NCBI GenBank assembly: GCA_005879315.1 | Contig: VBLC01000035.1 | Span: 129,686-193,685 of the forward strand | DNA from: Deltaproteobacteria bacterium | Lineage (GTDB): Bacteria > Myxococcota > Myxococcia > Myxococcales > 40CM-4-68-19 | Reading direction: 5' to 3' | Length of the DNA stretch: 64,000 nucleotides | Shown here: positions 35,164-55,765 of the stretch, piece by piece | Layout of the letters: every line of letters starts with the position of its first letter | Numbering within the stretch: position 1 is the first letter of the stretch | Program-made: the position numbers and the translations under genes | The notes under the pieces: generated by a model | Told to the model about the DNA's origin: nothing | What the model saw: only the letters and a program-made list of their open reading frames with translations | Database searches by the model: none

Positions 35164-37134
35164 TCAATGCTCTCCCTTGCGCAGCACGCGTTTGTCCCCG
35201 ATGCGCAGCGTGAGCTTCTCCCGGTCGAAATACTCGAGCAGGGGAATGGCGAACTTGCGGGTGAGCCCGGTCAGCTCCTTGAACCCCTGCGCGTCGATCG
35301 AGCCGTGCTCCTTGATGTGCGCCGAGAGCTTCGTGCGCAGGTGCGAGAGCGGCACGGCTCCGAACCAGAGTTCCTCACTGATGCGCGCGGCGCGGCCGGC
35401 GGAGACCAGCGCCTTGAGCAGCGCCTGCGTCCTCTGCGGTGTCTGGCCGACCAGGCCGGGCAGCTCGTCGGCGCGCGGCGGCTCGAGCCCGGCGCCCTCG
35501 AGGAGCTGGGCGAGCTTTTCCTGGGCGTCGGCGCTCGGTCCGCTCAGCGGCGCCGCCGTGCCCTTTGGCCGGACCCGCTCGGAATCGGCGCGCAGCTCGC
35601 CTTTCTCGGCCAGCGCGGCGAGCGCGCGGGCGAACAGCTTGGGCGGCGGCGACCCGGCCCGCTGGCGCAGCTCCTCGCGCGCGATCGAGGGATCGATCTC
35701 GTTCTGCGCGGCGTGCTCCTCCAGGCGCGCAGCGATCTTCTCCTCCAGCGCCTGCAGCACCTCGGCGTGCGCATAGAGCCGCGCCTCGCGGTCGAAGAGG
35801 ACCGCGCGCCCGCCCTGTGCCAGACGTTCCAGCGCGCGCTCGGCGCTCTTCTGCGTGAACTGCCCGCGCGCGAGAAGGCGGGGGGGCGAGGCGCCGGGAT
35901 ATCCCGATTCGAGCAGCAGCCGATCGGCCTGGGCGAGGGCGTCCTCTCCCGCCAGCGCCTGCAGCGCGAGCACGTCCGGCTCGCGCCGCCTTCTCCGCTT
36001 CGGCGAGACCGAGAGGATGCGGCCGCCGCCGATGGTGCTGGCGTGGCTGCGCTGCACGGCGCCGGGATCTCCGCGCAAGAGGAAGCGCAGCCCGGCGATC
36101 GCCGCGGTCGGATGCGAGAGATGCAGCTGTCCGAGCGCGCGCTCGCCGGGGGCGAGCTCGCCGCGATCGATCAGCGCCACCACCGCTGGGACCTGGGCCG
36201 TGCCGACGTGGGCGAGAAGGCGCGCCCGGTTCCTGAGCGCCCGTACGGCCCAAGGGAGAAGCTCCAGCTCGACGTCGAGCACCTGGGCCGCGCCGATCGA
36301 CTCCAGCGTGCCGGCCGGCACGAGCGCTGCGCCTCGCGGGGCATCGCGCACTTCCAGCGCGGCCAGGTTCGCGGCTGTCCGCTGACCGGCTCGCGCTCTC
36401 TCGACCGGAGCGCCGTGCACCTGCACGCCGCGCACGCGCACTCCGCGCGCCTTGGCGCCGGCGCCGACCAGATCCACCTCGTCGCCTGCCCCGAGCGCCC
36501 CGGAAAAGAGCGTCCCCGTCACCACGGTTCCAAAACCTTTGAGGGCAAACGATCGGTCCAAAGGAAGGAAGAGCGGGCCCTGCTCCGGCCGCGGCGCCTC
36601 TTGTTTCGCCTTGACCGCCTCGGCGATGGCCGCGACCAGCTCCGGAAGACCCTGCCCGGTGCGCGCCGAGCATTCGACGATGCGCGCGCCCTCGAGGAAA
36701 GTGCCCATCACCAGCTCCTGCATTTCCAGGAGCACGAGCTCGCGGTGCTCGGCGCCCAGGCCCGGCAAGAGATCGGACTTGGTCAGCGCGATCACTCCCG
36801 CCTGCACGCCGAGAAGACGGAGCACGTCGAGATGCTCCGCCGTCTGTGGCATCGGGCCCTCGTCGGATGCGACGCAGAGGACGGCCACGTCGATACCTCC
36901 CGCCGCCGCCACCATGGCGCGGAGGAAGCGCTCGTGGCCGGGCACGTCGACCACGCCCGCCACGCCGATGCCGGGCAATTCCAGGTGGGCATATCCGGCT
37001 TCGAGAGTGATGCCGCGCCGCTTCTCCTCGGGCAAGCGGTCGGTGTCGATGCCGGTGAGCGCCTTCACCAGCGCGGTCTTGCCGTGGTCGACGTGGCCGG
37101 CGGTGCCGACCACCACCCGCAGCGGCGCGCTCAT
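35164..37134 (-). CDS. selB: Selenocysteine-specific translation elongation factor SelB
   Basis: SelB delivers selenocysteinyl-tRNA to UGA codons. The 656-residue protein carries a GTPase domain with G1 GHVDHGKT (13-20), G2 RRGITLEAGYAHLEL, G3 DVPGHERF (63-70) and G4 TKSD (118-121). EF-Tu-like beta-barrels follow, then C-terminal winged-helix modules that bind the SECIS RNA. It ends in KLTLRIGDKRVLRKGEH. Length is typical. It overlaps the astD stop by four bases. No selA, selD or obvious selenoprotein lies in the window, so those genes must be elsewhere if the pathway works. Confidence 0.95.
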   Translation of the reverse strand: MSAPLRVVVGTAGHVDHGKTALVKALTGIDTDRLPEEKRRGITLEAGYAHLELPGIGVAGVVDVPGHERFLRAMVAAAGGIDVAVLCVASDEGPMPQTAEHLDVLRLLGVQAGVIALTKSDLLPGLGAEHRELVLLEMQELVMGTFLEGARIVECSARTGQGLPELVAAIAEAVKAKQEAPRPEQGPLFLPLDRSFALKGFGTVVTGTLFSGALGAGDEVDLVGAGAKARGVRVRGVQVHGAPVERARAGQRTAANLAALEVRDAPRGAALVPAGTLESIGAAQVLDVELELLPWAVRALRNRARLLAHVGTAQVPAVVALIDRGELAPGERALGQLHLSHPTAAIAGLRFLLRGDPGAVQRSHASTIGGGRILSVSPKRRRRREPDVLALQALAGEDALAQADRLLLESGYPGASPPRLLARGQFTQKSAERALERLAQGGRAVLFDREARLYAHAEVLQALEEKIAARLEEHAAQNEIDPSIAREELRQRAGSPPPKLFARALAALAEKGELRADSERVRPKGTAAPLSGPSADAQEKLAQLLEGAGLEPPRADELPGLVGQTPQRTQALLKALVSAGRAARISEELWFGAVPLSHLRTKLSAHIKEHGSIDAQGFKELTGLTRKFAIPLLEYFDREKLTLRIGDKRVLRKGEH

Positions 37135-38588
37135 TCATCGACCCAGAAGATGCCGGGAGCGAGCTTCTTCCGATCGAGCGCCGGCTCGCCGCGGAGGACG
37201 GCCACCGGCGCCGCGCAATAGAGAGTGCTCCAGAGCGCCGCCGGCCGGTGATTGCCGCTGTGCTTGAGCCCGCCGAAAGGCAGCCGCCCGCTCGCCCCGA
37301 CTGTCGGCGCGTTCCAATTCACCACGCCGCAGAGCAGGGCGCGCTGGCAACGATCGAAAGTGTCCGAAGAGGCGGTGTGCACGCTCGCCGCCAGGCCATA
37401 ATCGGTGGCGTTGGCGATCTCCAGCGCTTCTTCCTCGCTGCCTGCGGGATAGACGGCCAGGTCGGGGCCGAAGAGCTCCTCGCGCTCGTAAGACGTTCCG
37501 CGGCGGCGGTGCACGAGGTGCACGCTCGGGCTCACGTAGCAGCCCGCAAGCCCGCGCGGCGCGAGGCGTCGCGGCGCGAGCAGCTCTTCGACGTCGGCGC
37601 CGGTCGCGCGCAGGCCTTGCTCGAATTTCTCCAGCGCGGAAGGCGAGGCGAGGGGCCCCATGAAGACGCCGTCGTCGAGCGGATGGCCGATGGCGAGCCT
37701 CGTGGCCAGCTGCGCGACGCGCCGCGCGAACCGCTCGGCCGCGGCGGGTCCGACGACGATGGCGCGCGCGGCCGCGGTGCAGCGCTGCCCGGCGGAGACG
37801 AAAGCGGAGAAGAGCACGTCGTAGATCGCCTTGTCGAAATCGGCGTCGGGCAGGACCAGCGCCGCGTTCTTGCCGCCCATCTCCAGCGCGAGCAGCTTGG
37901 ACTGGCCCAGGCAGGCGCGCTCGATCGCCTGGCCCACTTTCCAGCTGCCGGTGAAGAGCACTCCGTCGATGTCCGCATGCGCCGCGAGTGCCCCGCCGAT
38001 GGAAGGGCCGCCTTGGACGAGGTTGAAGAGCCCCGGGGGCACACCGGCCTCCGCCAGGCAGCGCGCATAGATTTCCGCGGCGTGGGGGGCGATTTCGCTC
38101 GGCTTGAACACCACCGCATTTCCGCAGGCCAGCGCCGGCAGGATGTGGCCGTTCGGCAAGTGCACCGGGAAGTTGAAAGGGCCGAGCACGGCGACCACGC
38201 CGAGCGGCCGGAAGCGGCATTCGGCGCCCGCCTGCCCGGGAGCTGGGAAAGCGGAGACGAGCTTCATGCCCTCGTCCGCGGTGATGGCCGCCTTGGCGCT
38301 GCAGGCTTGCGCCTCGGTGCGCGCTTCCCAGAGCGGCTTGCCCACGTCGAGGGCGATGGCGCGCGCCAGCTCCTCCTCGTGCTTCTTCAAGACCGCGCCG
38401 ATGTCGCGCACCAGCTGCACGCAGTCGGGAGCTGGACGGGCCGCGCGCGCCGCCGCCACTGCCTTGTCCACTTGCGCGGCCGCATAGGGATAGCGGCCCA
38501 GCTGCAGCGAGAGATCGGCGGGCGATCGATCGTCGATGGCGCCCTCGGCGCCGGCCGGATCGGCCCATTGTCCGCCGATGAAGTCCAT
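37131..38588 (-). CDS. astD: Succinylglutamate-semialdehyde dehydrogenase
   Basis: An NAD-dependent aldehyde dehydrogenase of 485 residues, the AstD step of the arginine succinyltransferase pathway. It oxidises N-succinylglutamate semialdehyde. It has the cofactor motif LGPFNFPVHLPNGHILPAL (135-153), FKPSE, FTGSWKVGQ, the general-base Glu236 in LEMGGKNAAL, and the nucleophile Cys270 in FVSAGQRCTAAAR. It begins at the base where astA ends (38588). AstA beside it identifies the pathway; without that neighbour the aldehyde-dehydrogenase class alone would not fix the substrate. Confidence 0.9.
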   Translation of the reverse strand: MDFIGGQWADPAGAEGAIDDRSPADLSLQLGRYPYAAAQVDKAVAAARAARPAPDCVQLVRDIGAVLKKHEEELARAIALDVGKPLWEARTEAQACSAKAAITADEGMKLVSAFPAPGQAGAECRFRPLGVVAVLGPFNFPVHLPNGHILPALACGNAVVFKPSEIAPHAAEIYARCLAEAGVPPGLFNLVQGGPSIGGALAAHADIDGVLFTGSWKVGQAIERACLGQSKLLALEMGGKNAALVLPDADFDKAIYDVLFSAFVSAGQRCTAAARAIVVGPAAAERFARRVAQLATRLAIGHPLDDGVFMGPLASPSALEKFEQGLRATGADVEELLAPRRLAPRGLAGCYVSPSVHLVHRRRGTSYEREELFGPDLAVYPAGSEEEALEIANATDYGLAASVHTASSDTFDRCQRALLCGVVNWNAPTVGASGRLPFGGLKHSGNHRPAALWSTLYCAAPVAVLRGEPALDRKKLAPGIFWVDE

Positions 38589-39631
38589 CAGTCGAAGGGG
38601 ATGGTGTGCAGGCGCTCGCCGCGTTCGGCGCCGAGCAGCGTCGCCGCGTCTTCGGGCAGGAGCGCCTCGGCGTCGCGGAAGCGGACCGGCGATCGGACGC
38701 AGCGGAAGCGATTGCGACCGTGAGGGCGCTCGAGAGCGACCAGCCGTTCCTCGACCTCGTCGGCGGTCGCATCGCCGCCTTGCGGCAGCGGGGTCGCACC
38801 GAGCTTGGCGCGGCGGAAGCGGCGGATGGGCTCGATCAGCGCGGTCGGCGCCGAGTAGTGCGGGCCGCCGTCGAAAGGATCGATGCGCTCGTCGTAGCGG
38901 AAGCCGATCCTGGTGAGCATGTCCTTGGCCCCCGCCGTCTGCGGGCCCACCTCTCCGATGGCGTCCTGGATCTTCTGCGAGAAGATCGTCGCGTAGATCT
39001 CGCCTGGCGGGAAGAGCTGCTGGATGAATTCCTTGTTCTCGCGGGAGAGGCGGTCCGCCTCCTGATAGCTCAGCCCCGTGAACTTGCGCCCGAGCGCTTC
39101 CCAGAGGGGGCTGCGGTTGTCTTCCTCCAGGCGCGGGAGCAGCTCGACCAGGATGCGATCGCGAAAGCGCGGCCGGTGCATCGCGACGTAGAGGAATCGG
39201 ACCAGGCTGAGCTGCTTGCCGGGCTTCTGCTGTCCGCGAAACTGCGAGTCGACCACCAGCCCGCCGATCTCGGTGGGGCCCTCGAAGTTGTAGCCGATCG
39301 AGAGCACCCGATGGCGGAAATGCTTGTCCACCGAGTGGCTGTAATGCTCCTTCTCGTAGACGTCGAAGAAGATGTGAGGCGCGTCGCGCGTGCCGTGCTG
39401 GGCGATGATCAGCGACGAGCCCACCACCTTGCCGCTCCGCGCGTCCTCGAGCACGAAGAGATACTCGCGCTCGAAAGGGTCGCGGATGCGCCCGTCGAAG
39501 GAGCGAGCCGACTTCTCGACGATGGCCGACAGCTCCTTCTCGTCGTTGGGCAGGTTCACGGTGTTCAGCTCGCCGGCCAGCTTCTTCAGCGCGGGCAAGT
39601 CACCTTTGTGGACGTCGCGGATCACGTACAC
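38588..39631 (-). CDS. astA: Arginine N-succinyltransferase
   Basis: This GNAT-type enzyme transfers a succinyl group from succinyl-CoA to arginine, the first step of the AST arginine-catabolic pathway. The 347 residues are the normal length for a one-chain AstA. Diagnostic stretches are IRDVHKGDLPALKKLAG, EIGGLVVDSQFRGQQKPGK, RFLYVAMHRPRFRDRILVEL (20 residues) and LTRIGFRYDERIDPFDGGPH (20 residues). It lies downstream of the M20 hydrolase and upstream of astD in the same unit. AstB and AstC are not in the window. Confidence 0.95.
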   Translation of the reverse strand: MYVIRDVHKGDLPALKKLAGELNTVNLPNDEKELSAIVEKSARSFDGRIRDPFEREYLFVLEDARSGKVVGSSLIIAQHGTRDAPHIFFDVYEKEHYSHSVDKHFRHRVLSIGYNFEGPTEIGGLVVDSQFRGQQKPGKQLSLVRFLYVAMHRPRFRDRILVELLPRLEEDNRSPLWEALGRKFTGLSYQEADRLSRENKEFIQQLFPPGEIYATIFSQKIQDAIGEVGPQTAGAKDMLTRIGFRYDERIDPFDGGPHYSAPTALIEPIRRFRRAKLGATPLPQGGDATADEVEERLVALERPHGRNRFRCVRSPVRFRDAEALLPEDAATLLGAERGERLHTIPFD

Positions 39632-41046
39632 GAGCAGAGCTCCACGATGAGCTGTTCATAGAGATCGCACGCCTTCTCCAGTTGCGCCATCTCGATCCGC
39701 TCGTTCGCGGCGTGCGCATTGCCGGTGCTCTTGCCCGGGCCGATGACGATGGCCTGGCTGCCGGCCCGGGCAAAGACCCCTGCCTCCGTGCTGGTTGGCT
39801 TGGCCTGCGGGGCAGGGTCCAACCCCCGCCCGCGGAGGACGTTTTGTACAATTTGTACAAATTGCGCGTCGTGGGGCAGGGCCGTCCCCCCGGCGTTGCG
39901 CTCCATCGAAACCTCGAGCTCCAGCTCCCCACCCCCCAGGCTGGCGACCCAGTCGCGGGCATTTTGTACAAAATGCGCGACCACTGCGTCCGGGTCCTGG
40001 GAGTGGAGGAGGCGGGCGTCGAAATGGGCCGCGGCCTCGGCCACGCCATAGATCGCGTCCGGGGGAGGCACCGGCGATTCCATGCTCTCGAGCACATTCA
40101 GGCCGCCCACCGCGCCAGGGGGATCGAACTGCGGGTCTTCTCCTCGCGGAAGGCTCTCTTGCCACAATTCCTCCAGCGCCCCCAGGGTGGCGAGCGTGCG
40201 CCAGAGGTTGGGCCGGAGCGGCTGGGCCCGGAGGAAGCGGACCTCGTCGGGGGCAGGCTGGCCATTCTCCCGCGGCGCCGGAACCAGGAGCGTGCAGCTG
40301 GCCGGCACGACATTGCTGGATGTCCCGCCGCGCGCGGCCAGGATCGGCGCCCCGGAGCTGCGCGCCCAGGCCAGCGCCTTCAAGATGGCATTGACCCCGA
40401 GCTGCGGGGTCGAGCTGTGCGCAGCCTTGCCGGAAAAGCGCAGCTCCTCGACTCCCGGCCCGGCGCTGGAGACGAGCCGCGCCCGCAGATCGCGCACGGT
40501 GCAGCGGACCACGGCATATCCCTTGTGCGCCGTGATCAGCCTGAGCTCGCTGGGCTCGCCGCAGAGCACGAACGCCGGCGCGACCTCTCGAAAGAGCTCG
40601 GATCCAGCAAAATGGCGGGCGCCGCGCAGGCCCACTTCCTCGCCGAAAGTCCCGAGCAGCCAGAAAGGCCGCCGCAGCCTGCGCCCCTGCACCCGCCGCG
40701 CCGCCTCCGCCTTGCAGAGCGCATCCAGCTTCACGTCGGCGACGCCGAGGCCGTAGAGGACGCCGCCGCGCTCCGTCAGCGTCCAGGGATCGGTCTCCCA
40801 TCCCGGCGCCGCCGGAACAGTGTCGAGATGCGTGACGAACAGCGTCCCGCCACCGCCCGAAGCGTGCCCTCCGGGCCCGCCGAGGACATTGACGTGCACC
40901 TCCTCGACCGACTGCCGGCGCACCGCAAGGCCGGCGTGCTCCCAGAGCGAGGACAGGAGATCGGCCGCCCGCCTGGTCCCATTCGCCGAGACGGTGTTCG
41001 CCGCGATCAGCTGGCGAGCGAGCTCGAGAAAGCCCGTGGAAAGCAT
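39622..41046 (-). CDS. M20 family metallopeptidase / N-acyl amino-acid deacylase
   Basis: A 474-residue zinc hydrolase of the ArgE/DapE/CPG2 family. Metal and catalytic elements: LFVTHLDTVPAA (His and Asp), VADVKLDALCKAEA, FGEEVGLRG (catalytic Glu-Glu), a cleavage-domain insertion, and a C-terminal His in GKSTGNAHAANERIEM. It starts the unit that holds astA and astD. By position it may remove the succinyl group from succinylglutamate, the step of AstE, which is absent. That is inference. Its 3' third contains two AT-rich TTGTACAA palindromes translated as F-V-Q, listed separately. Confidence 0.88.
   Translation of the reverse strand: MLSTGFLELARQLIAANTVSANGTRRAADLLSSLWEHAGLAVRRQSVEEVHVNVLGGPGGHASGGGGTLFVTHLDTVPAAPGWETDPWTLTERGGVLYGLGVADVKLDALCKAEAARRVQGRRLRRPFWLLGTFGEEVGLRGARHFAGSELFREVAPAFVLCGEPSELRLITAHKGYAVVRCTVRDLRARLVSSAGPGVEELRFSGKAAHSSTPQLGVNAILKALAWARSSGAPILAARGGTSSNVVPASCTLLVPAPRENGQPAPDEVRFLRAQPLRPNLWRTLATLGALEELWQESLPRGEDPQFDPPGAVGGLNVLESMESPVPPPDAIYGVAEAAAHFDARLLHSQDPDAVVAHFVQNARDWVASLGGGELELEVSMERNAGGTALPHDAQFVQIVQNVLRGRGLDPAPQAKPTSTEAGVFARAGSQAIVIGPGKSTGNAHAANERIEMAQLEKACDLYEQLIVELCSCT
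39842..39862. repeat. Double AT-rich palindrome, core TTGTACAA, inside the M20 gene
   Basis: Two TTGTACAA-type palindromes lie head to tail, TTTTGTACAA (39842-39851) and ATTTGTACAAAT (39851-39862), with centres nine bases apart. In the minus-strand gene they read as F-V-Q-I-V-Q-N. A nine-base spacing keeps the reading frame. The AT content stands out sharply from the surrounding GC-rich coding sequence. Two further sites are at 39960-39975 and 54353-54366. Confidence 0.7.
39960..39975. repeat. AT-rich perfect 16-base palindrome inside the M20 gene
   Basis: CATTTTGTACAAAATG is a perfect 16-base inverted repeat. In the M20 gene it encodes H-F-V-Q-N. It sits about 105 bases from the double palindrome at 39842 and shares its TTGTACAA core. 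Such a site could bind a dimeric protein or be a short mobile insertion; I cannot decide which. Confidence 0.7.
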
Positions 41047-54242: not shown

Positions 54243-55765
54243 GAGAGGGCGTCGCGGACGTGCGTCGAGGCCCAGGAGGCGAGGGCGTAGATCGACTCCA
54301 TCGGGTTCACCCCCAGGCCGGTGGGGAAGACGCTGCCGTCGATGACGAAGAGATTTTGTACAAAATGATGACGGAGGCGCGGGTCGACCACCGAGCGGGC
54401 CGGGTCGGCCCCCATCCGGCAGCCGCCCATCTGGTGTGCAGTGAAGGCGGCGAAGAGGTTGGGGCCCATCGGCGCCGCGTCCACCCCGCCGATGTCCGCC
54501 TCGCTGCGGATGACGACCGGGTCGAGATGGAAGCTCTGCACCTCGCGCGCGCCGTTGGCGAGGTGAAGGCGGGCGATGGCCTTCATCCCGGCGCGGAAGC
54601 ATTCGTAGTGGCGGGCGCCGAAGGGATAGTCGAGCCGGGGAGCGCCGTCGGGGCGCAGCGAGACGGTGCCGCCCTCCTCGCCTTCGCCGAAGCCGTCGAT
54701 CATCAGCGAGAGGGTGGCGGCGACATTTCCCAGAAGCGCCATGCGCCCGCGCAGAGGCGCGCCGAAGCCGGGCATGGCGATGGAGGCGAGCATGGGATGC
54801 ACCGGCGCCGCCTCGATGAAGAATCCGGCGCCCTCGCCGCGCCGGGAGAAATGGTGCGAGGCGACGCTCTGCGGCGCGCCGTAGAAGCCTTCGACGCGCT
54901 CCTTGTAGAAGGCCCCCATCGCCACCACCGGATGAAGCCAGGTCTTCTTCCCCACCGGGCCCTGATCGACCCCCGAGCGCAGGAGCAGCGCCGGCGAGTT
55001 CAAGGCGCCGCCCGAGACGACCATGACCCGTGGCTCGACACGCACGGTCCGCCCCGTCGCTTGCTGCGTGCCGGGATGGAGCAGCTCGCCGATGGCCGCC
55101 GTCGCGCGGCTGCCGCTCCATTCGATCTTCCTCACGCGGCAGTCGGCGTAGATGTCCGCGCCGGCCGCGACTGCGTCGGGCAGGTACGTCAGCGTGGCGG
55201 TCTGCTTGGCGTCCACGGGGCAGCCCATGCCGCAGTAGCCTGTGCGCAGGCAGCCGCGGACGTTGCGGCTGACGGTGTCGACCTGCCAGCCCAGCTTCTT
55301 GCAGCCCTGGTAGATGGAGCGGTTGTTGGCGTTGGTGTCTTCCAGGTCGACTTTCTCGATGCCGAGCCGCCGTTCGATCTCCTCGAAGTGCGGCCGGAGG
55401 ATCTCGGGGGTGAGCAAAGAGCCTTCGCGCTCGCGCCAGAAGGCGAGCACGTCGTCGGGCGTGCGGTAGCTGGTGGTCCAGTTGACGACCGTCCCGCCGC
55501 CGACGGCGCGGCCCTGCAACACCGCGATGGAGAGGTCGGCGGAGGCGCGGTTGCCGCGGTCCTGGTAGAGGCGCGGATAGGCGGTCGCCTCCTGCATGTC
55601 GAACTCGTCCTTGGTGTAGAAGCCGCCCTCCTCGAGGACGGCCACTCTCGCGCCGGCGCGCGCGAGCCGCTGCGCGACCATCGCTCCGCCTGGACCGCTT
55701 CCGATGATGCAGACGTCGGGCTTGAGCAAGAGGTCCTGCGCGATCTCGTCGCCCTTGTGGATCAC
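54239..55765 (-). CDS. GMC family FAD-dependent oxidoreductase
   Basis: A 508-residue flavoenzyme. It starts with the FAD dinucleotide fold VCIIGSGPGGAMVAQRLARA (20 residues) and the acidic end AVLEEG. GGGTVVNWTTSY, a second domain with MVVSGGALNSPALLLRSG, and the C-terminal GMC end IDGSVFPTGLGVNPMESIYA (20 residues) follow. Substrates of this class include sugars, alcohols and sterols. The upstream gene encodes a gluconate-2-dehydrogenase subunit-3-like protein, so a membrane-linked sugar or alcohol dehydrogenase is likely. A TTGTACAA palindrome lies at 54353-54366 where the chain reads H-F-V-Q-N-L. Confidence 0.9.
   Translation of the reverse strand: MIHKGDEIAQDLLLKPDVCIIGSGPGGAMVAQRLARAGARVAVLEEGGFYTKDEFDMQEATAYPRLYQDRGNRASADLSIAVLQGRAVGGGTVVNWTTSYRTPDDVLAFWREREGSLLTPEILRPHFEEIERRLGIEKVDLEDTNANNRSIYQGCKKLGWQVDTVSRNVRGCLRTGYCGMGCPVDAKQTATLTYLPDAVAAGADIYADCRVRKIEWSGSRATAAIGELLHPGTQQATGRTVRVEPRVMVVSGGALNSPALLLRSGVDQGPVGKKTWLHPVVAMGAFYKERVEGFYGAPQSVASHHFSRRGEGAGFFIEAAPVHPMLASIAMPGFGAPLRGRMALLGNVAATLSLMIDGFGEGEEGGTVSLRPDGAPRLDYPFGARHYECFRAGMKAIARLHLANGAREVQSFHLDPVVIRSEADIGGVDAAPMGPNLFAAFTAHQMGGCRMGADPARSVVDPRLRHHFVQNLFVIDGSVFPTGLGVNPMESIYALASWASTHVRDALS
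54353..54366. repeat. AT-rich palindrome ATTTTGTACAAAAT inside the GMC gene
   Basis: A perfect 14-base palindrome with the same TTGTACAA core as at 39842 and 39960. Read in the minus-strand gene it gives H-F-V-Q-N, replacing the usual V-H-G-V-x-N-L before FVIDGSVFP. Confidence 0.65.

Follow-up and report, generated by a model that had tools for sequence, protein, structure and literature searches.

Dispersed TGTACA palindromes in 9-bp steps within coding genes of a Myxococcales subgroup, and a candidate Phd/YefM-type binding protein

The GC-rich genome of a Deltaproteobacteria bacterium of the order Myxococcales (assembly GCA_005879315.1) carries AT-rich palindromes inside a deacylase gene, which raises the question of what such sequences are and how they came to lie in protein-coding DNA. 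The initial annotation proposed either a short, frame-preserving repeat family or a protein-binding site compatible with a location in coding regions. The window analysed here is a 64,000-bp stretch of contig VBLC01000035.1; the genome to which it belongs (G000; 4.43 Mb, 125 contigs) was compared with those of six congeners (G001 to G006).

Palindromes of the window and their abundance in related genomes

Three palindromic cores are indeed present in one gene (39622-41046, minus strand), which encodes a 474-residue M20-family peptidase/deacylase (matching PF01546, E = 1.6e-28, and PF07687) and is located upstream of AstA-like and AstD-like genes on the same strand. Two of the cores form a double site (TTTTGTACAATTTGTACAAATT, 39842-39863) with TGTACA at 39845-39850 and 39854-39859, the nine-base spacing first noted, and with a third, degenerate unit (TGCGCG) in register at 39863-39868. 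The remaining core (39965-39970) is the centre of a perfect palindrome (GCATTTTGTACAAAATGC, 39959-39976), 18 bp long rather than the 16 first reported, which is flanked by units in the 9-bp register, CGGGCA (39956-39961) and TGCGCG (39974-39979). The cores are translated as FVQ, IVQ and FVQ (peptides QFVQIVQN and HFVQN), and not all as F-V-Q, as had been stated. A fourth site (AGATTTTGTACAAAATGA, 54351-54368), with weak flanking units, lies within a minus-strand gene named GMC-oxidoreductase-like from its sequence. The octamer TTGTACAA thus has four copies in the window (39844-39851, 39853-39860, 39964-39971 and 54356-54363), versus an expectation of 0.03 from dinucleotide shuffles of the window.

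The gene order on the minus strand at 37131-41046 (M20 deacylase, AstA-like N-succinyltransferase, AstD-like dehydrogenase) suggests arginine/ornithine catabolism by succinylation, the names being taken from sequence, with a profile check for the M20 protein only.

The palindromes are not a local curiosity of the M20 gene, but are found throughout the genome. Genome-wide statistics, based on pattern searches and fetched sequence stretches, bear out the excess that the initial annotation proposed to look for: TTGTACAA has 43 copies in G000 versus 13 of the reversed control word, and TGTACAnnnTGTACA, a tandem of TGTACA with a 9-bp step, has 11 versus none. Two congeners resemble G000 (46 and 45 copies of TTGTACAA, and 8 and 6 of TGTACAnnnTGTACA, in G001 and G002, respectively, with no control copies of the latter), whereas G003 to G006 have only 3 to 7 copies of TTGTACAA each, where control counts are 14 to 15. 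Pattern searches found no TGTACAnnnTGTACA in G003 to G006 or in the remainder of the family, and other Myxococcota among 195 genomes have it 0 to 2 times, usually with GC-rich spacers. These congeners and the reversed-pattern controls rule out chance occurrence in a GC-rich genome. The most over-represented 8-mer was TGTACAAA in a 446-kb sample that had been picked partly for containing sites. Cataloguing yielded 49, 53 and 48 sites in G000, G001 and G002 (44, 39 and 37 of them AT-flanked), which cluster into 36, 32 and 30 separate loci. At the protein level G000 is approximately 76% identical to all other congeners, and in a tree of masked concatenated segments a weak branch (78/82) separates the three genomes with sites from the rest; a single origin of the sites is therefore possible, but unproven.

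Related doublets were observed in distant genomes. The complete chromosome of Roseovarius sp. (OX638333.1) has 25 copies of TGTACAnnnTGTACA and no control copies (L286-L300), almost all of them within an intergenic element of approximately 90 bp (TTTGTACAATTTGTACAAATTGTACA...TTTTGTACAAAGATCGG...GTGCATCATGCACAC), and Nitrospirales bacterium jk18x22bins.71 and its relatives have long intergenic arrays of TTTTGTAMA units of approximately 9 bp, with 19 copies of TGTACAnnnTGTACA in 2.4 Mb and no control copies (L301-L305, L267, L194, L200, L226). Being mostly intergenic, with other flanks, these doublets do not belong to the same dispersed intragenic family. Phycisphaerae bacterium AS06rmzACSIP_467 has at least six copies of an intergenic element with a common flank, AAAAACCGCGATTTTT...CATCCGGATTTTGTACAAAATGTACAATC (L192, L238, L243, L252, L254, L257). 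In Methanosarcinales/ANME-2, TTTTGTACAAACTGTACAAT is located 41 to 57 bp upstream of a Pfam-confirmed TrmB-type regulator gene (L191 1836, L221 3757), possibly as an autoregulatory operator; similar sequences are found at L213, L216, L227, L239 and L248.

Site architecture and a candidate binding protein

A 24-bp tripartite logo, YGNNCR-WTT-TGTACA-AAW-YGNNCR, is common to the sites, isolated ones included. Among 74 isolated AT-flanked sites, position +7 is Y in 96%, +8 is G/T in 90%, +11 is C in 82% and +12 is R in 85%; on average, the sequence at +/-9 agrees with TGTACA at 2.89 of 6 positions, versus approximately 1.2 in the background, and the match at +18 is barely above background. In the 56 isolated coding sites, C occupies +11 in 89 of 112 cases (79%), versus a background frequency of approximately 0.35 and 0.53 in GC-flanked control words; the associated p = 6e-21 is indicative only, since neither the halves of one site nor related sites count as independent observations. 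It is very probable that the palindromes are dispersed sites at which some protein binds DNA. A sequence-specific DNA-binding protein would occupy them in 9-bp steps, one dimer recognizing TGTACA and, judging from the logo, additional dimers or half-sites at 9-bp steps raising the affinity, so that binding would presumably be cooperative. Each site would then consist of a central TGTACA dyad with weaker half-units at +9 and -9, sometimes upgraded to two, three or more copies of TGTACA.

Both operator palindromes of the toxin-antitoxin systems yefM-yoeB and axe-txe have TGTACA as their core (PMC7730913, PMC4803016), and the sites described here share this core within an AT-rich palindrome, with paired copies among them. 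Searching 84,980 species genomes for the doublet TTTTGTACAAANTGTACAA returned 79 stretches, in seven of which (L201, L220, L230, L244, L255, L262 and L265, some with scores below the Pfam cut-off) a PF02604 antitoxin gene for 81 to 83 residues begins 8 to 24 bp downstream. These seven contigs belong to Gracilibacteria, Kaiserbacteria/Patescibacteria, Paceibacterota, Terracidiphilus and Betaproteobacteria; thus, the identical 9-bp doublet precedes Phd/YefM genes of other phyla. The published operators differ in spacing, which is 12 bp centre to centre versus 9 bp here, but the 9-bp step recurs in the antitoxin promoters of L230 and L244, each with four units.

The palindrome also precedes genes of this family in two of the genomes with sites. 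Three near-identical PF02604 genes of G000 (89-97% identity; the orphan protein at contig C22, 29431-29835, has 135 residues) have GGTCATTTTGTACAAAAYGC 52 to 55 bp upstream of the domain, and a G002 homolog (41-42% identical to the G000 protein; Pfam score 17.8 bits versus a cut-off of 29.8) has palindromes 56 bp and 94 bp upstream. By our own estimate, approximately 0.006 palindrome-gene pairings would be expected by chance among six genes and 43 sites; because the three G000 genes are near-copies, the association amounts to about two independent cases. Unlike those of yefM-yoeB and axe-txe, these genes have no co-directional gene following them and no adjacent toxin gene, and therefore look like orphans; their products also differ in having a conserved extra C-terminal part, which is common to paralogs in G003. 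In the G003 paralogs, as in one paralog each of G000 and G001, the corresponding position is taken instead by a run-of-A/run-of-T palindrome. G003 shows no motif excess, and searches of G004 to G006 returned neither a match to the orphan protein nor the motif. G001, which is 96% complete, is the weak point of this assignment, since it has the sites but a search for close homologs of the orphan protein detected none there. The majority of the dispersed sites are not in Phd/YefM gene promoters. A Phd/YefM-type protein is the best-supported candidate and would bind all of the sites.

The orphan genes share a leader of 32 to 33 nucleotides (GGGGATGTCRGACCC..TGGYAG..CATG), which is conserved at the nucleotide level, even in cases where its length alters the reading frame, and is preceded by TTTTGTACAAAA or by the A-run/T-run palindrome. 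Leader and palindrome together look like a dispersed cassette (L101 4371-4431, L054 11557-11612 and L109 4505-4562, with further leader loci at L283, L271, L277, L280, L284, L274, L282 and L285).

The strongest competitor keeps the dispersed binding site but assigns it to another protein, such as a MerR-like regulator of the LitR/CarH or BldC type polymerizing on direct repeats. The LitR-type protein PmlR2 binds TGTACA-N12-TGTACA, whose 18-bp step is twice 9 (PMC9758184), and BldC binds head-to-tail 9-bp direct repeats described as AATTXXXX(C) (PMC5859096), which AATTTGTAC matches. CarH operators, however, have 11-bp repeats (PMC9304148), and an operator of the CarH or LitR class II type was rejected because the step is 9 bp, not 11 or 18. 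No MerR-type gene was seen adjoining a site, whereas orphan Phd/YefM-like genes do adjoin sites, and it is before Phd/YefM genes that the exact 9-bp doublet stands in other phyla. A binder other than a Phd/YefM-type protein is rather unlikely.

Location in genes and origin by substitution in place

By a codon-usage score, 24 of 36 loci in G000, 26 of 32 in G001 and 23 of 30 in G002 are coding, i.e. approximately 65-80% are intragenic. Relative positions along the genes of G000 are indistinguishable from uniform (p = 0.28), and all three codon phases are represented. A transcription-factor regulon, in which the sites would be operators of the genes that they occupy or adjoin, accounts for the minority in promoters (those of the orphan Phd/YefM genes, of a gene at L054 9971 and of a divergent region at L065 8114), but most sites lie deep within genes of unrelated pathways, evenly along their length, and many are not common to congeners. 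The location in gene bodies of unrelated pathways makes gene-by-gene regulation unlikely for most sites, and the regulon as a general explanation is improbable. The annotated alternative of a protein-binding site that tolerates coding regions, in contrast, agrees with the genome-wide excess, the common logo, the three phases and the core identical to that of Phd/YefM operators.

Turnover of sites between congeners is high, and conservation of shared sites is moderate. By a loose criterion, TGTACA or CGTACA is retained in place in G001 for 7 of the 22 coding sites of G000 that have an ortholog there; in G004, G005 and G006, with 9 to 19 orthologs inspected per genome, no ortholog retains it. 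Among codons for the same amino acid, 0.90 are identical in shared sites versus 0.54 in the flanks, a figure of little weight, since it is biased upward by the choice of shared sites for having the core.

For a view of how the sites arose, a protein chimera of 22 site regions of G000 was searched across the genus, and the orthologous DNA was fetched and codon-aligned. In the alignments of 21 sites there are mostly no insertions or deletions at the site; a sequence of equal length has been replaced. The single site of the M20 gene reads CAT TTT GTA CAA AAT, versus CGC TTC ACG GAG CAA and similar sequences in congeners, and the G001 ortholog has CAT TTC GTA CAA AAT (CATTTCGTACAAAATGCG) at this position; the double site reads TTT GTA CAA ATT GTA CAA, versus CTG GTG TTG AAA GCG GGC and others. 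The aligned M20 orthologs are equal in length here, so that the F-V-Q segments, which the initial annotation proposed to check for this, are not insertions. At approximately eight sites (L052, L053, L064, L103, L108, L113, L114 and L116) the peptide is unchanged and the codons alone differ, as in AAG CTC TAC AAC to AAA TTG TAC AAT. Orthologs that encode identical residues by ordinary GC-rich codons, which the initial annotation regarded as evidence against the motif, do therefore exist, but an unchanged peptide argues for selection at the DNA level and not against a DNA motif.

Additional units have likewise been gained by substitution in register, not by growth of a repeat three codons at a time as first supposed. 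In the CTK gene at L104, TTTTGTACAAAA is followed by CGT ACA ATT in G002 and by CGC GCG GTC in G000; at L059 an upstream unit was gained in G000 and a downstream unit in G001; and at L105 a second 9-bp unit is present in G000 only. The hypervariable array at L111 4477, which differs in unit number among G000, G001 and G002 and has alignment gaps, may be the only case in which the unit number itself changed. Gaps beside the site occur in a few other cases (L061 12603, L062 and L099). Since G003 has one degenerate related site (L061 12603), a few sites may predate the subgroup.

In G001 (L018, C12) and G002 (L366, C218), TGTACA arrays are also present in a second, paralogous M20 protein, where they align approximately with the M20 double site of the window, either by parallel gain or as an old site.

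Long degenerate arrays of strict 9-bp period (GAGTCTCCG GAGTGTCCA GAGTGCGCA GACTGTACA GTTTGTACA), in which the units pass gradually from GC-rich to AT-rich, were also observed (L100 4368-4442, L063 5254-5330, L047 6609-6680, L285 1780-1980). Carry-over from such long arrays (GAGTGTCCG GAGTGCGCA GACTGTACA) was rejected as the source of the single sites, because G000 has them at four places only.

Molecular drive without cellular function, in which uptake-type or HIP-like words accumulate through biased mutation, repair or transformation, would also proceed by in-place gain and synonymous routes with high turnover between congeners. HIP1 and uptake words number hundreds to thousands per genome, whereas only about 40 copies are present here. 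HIP1 and other iterated palindromes resemble the present sites in being perfect palindromes over-represented in genes and gained by in-place substitution (PMC4390886), but the present motif is far rarer (43 copies), its 24-bp tripartite logo exceeds a methylase or uptake word, and no methyltransferase link came to light. As this explanation also leaves the tandem 9-bp units and the antitoxin promoters unaccounted for, it is decidedly improbable.

Rickettsia palindromic elements likewise place palindromic DNA in coding genes with the frame kept, but these are insertions of approximately 100-150 bp, whereas the present sites are equal-length replacements and no ortholog was found to be shorter by an element. 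A mobile or expandable short repeat, spreading by in-frame palindromic insertion or 9-bp slippage, would suit the L111 4477 array and the four long degenerate arrays, but is very improbable and largely ruled out by the equal-length codon alignments, the second units gained by substitution and the lack of any flank duplication seen.

A possible chromosome-scale role

On balance, the most probable account is that the sites arose in place, are bound by a stand-alone Phd/YefM-family protein and serve a chromosome-scale role. Approximately 30 to 36 AT-flanked loci per genome would have arisen by point substitution in one subgroup of the genus, mostly within genes and often at places whose peptide was already almost compatible with them. 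The likeliest binder would be a toxin-less Phd/YefM-type protein that represses its own promoter via the palindrome there and, in addition, occupies the dispersed sites, which, unlike the known operators of this family, are mostly inside unrelated genes. Its role would most likely be the marking or structuring of DNA, as with SlmA and Noc sites, and not control of the host genes; another possibility is that the dispersed sites are decoys that titrate the orphan protein.

SlmA, the closest functional model by analogy, is a protein of a transcription-factor family that binds a 12-bp palindrome, present approximately 50 times and for the most part within coding regions, and does not regulate the host genes (PMC3116907). 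Like the present sites, SlmA and Noc sites are a single palindrome repeated some tens of times, largely within coding regions, but they differ in sequence and in protein family, the candidate being neither SlmA (TetR) nor Noc (ParB-like). SlmA sites have an origin/terminus bias, whereas the likeness here, from draft contigs, consists in copy number and coding location; phasing of several units at 9 bp has not been reported for SlmA sites.

The open-access literature yielded no account of antitoxin-type operators scattered through coding genes, and text queries with TTGTACAA or on antitoxin sites across a genome returned nothing on point. Operators of this kind and dispersed palindromes are both known; as far as could be found, their combination and the in-place spread are new.

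A further-reaching proposal is offered tentatively: an orphan Phd/YefM-like protein may have turned into a chromosome-scale binder, with cooperative 9-bp-step sites in dozens of genes and with DNA-level selection overriding codon preference and sometimes protein sequence. If this is true, a toxin-antitoxin regulator can become a genome-wide DNA-marking system, and genomes with and without sites, at approximately 76% protein identity, would allow the birth of such a system to be traced codon by codon. Odd residue changes in conserved enzymes (FVQ, LYK, CTK) would then be side effects of selection on DNA.
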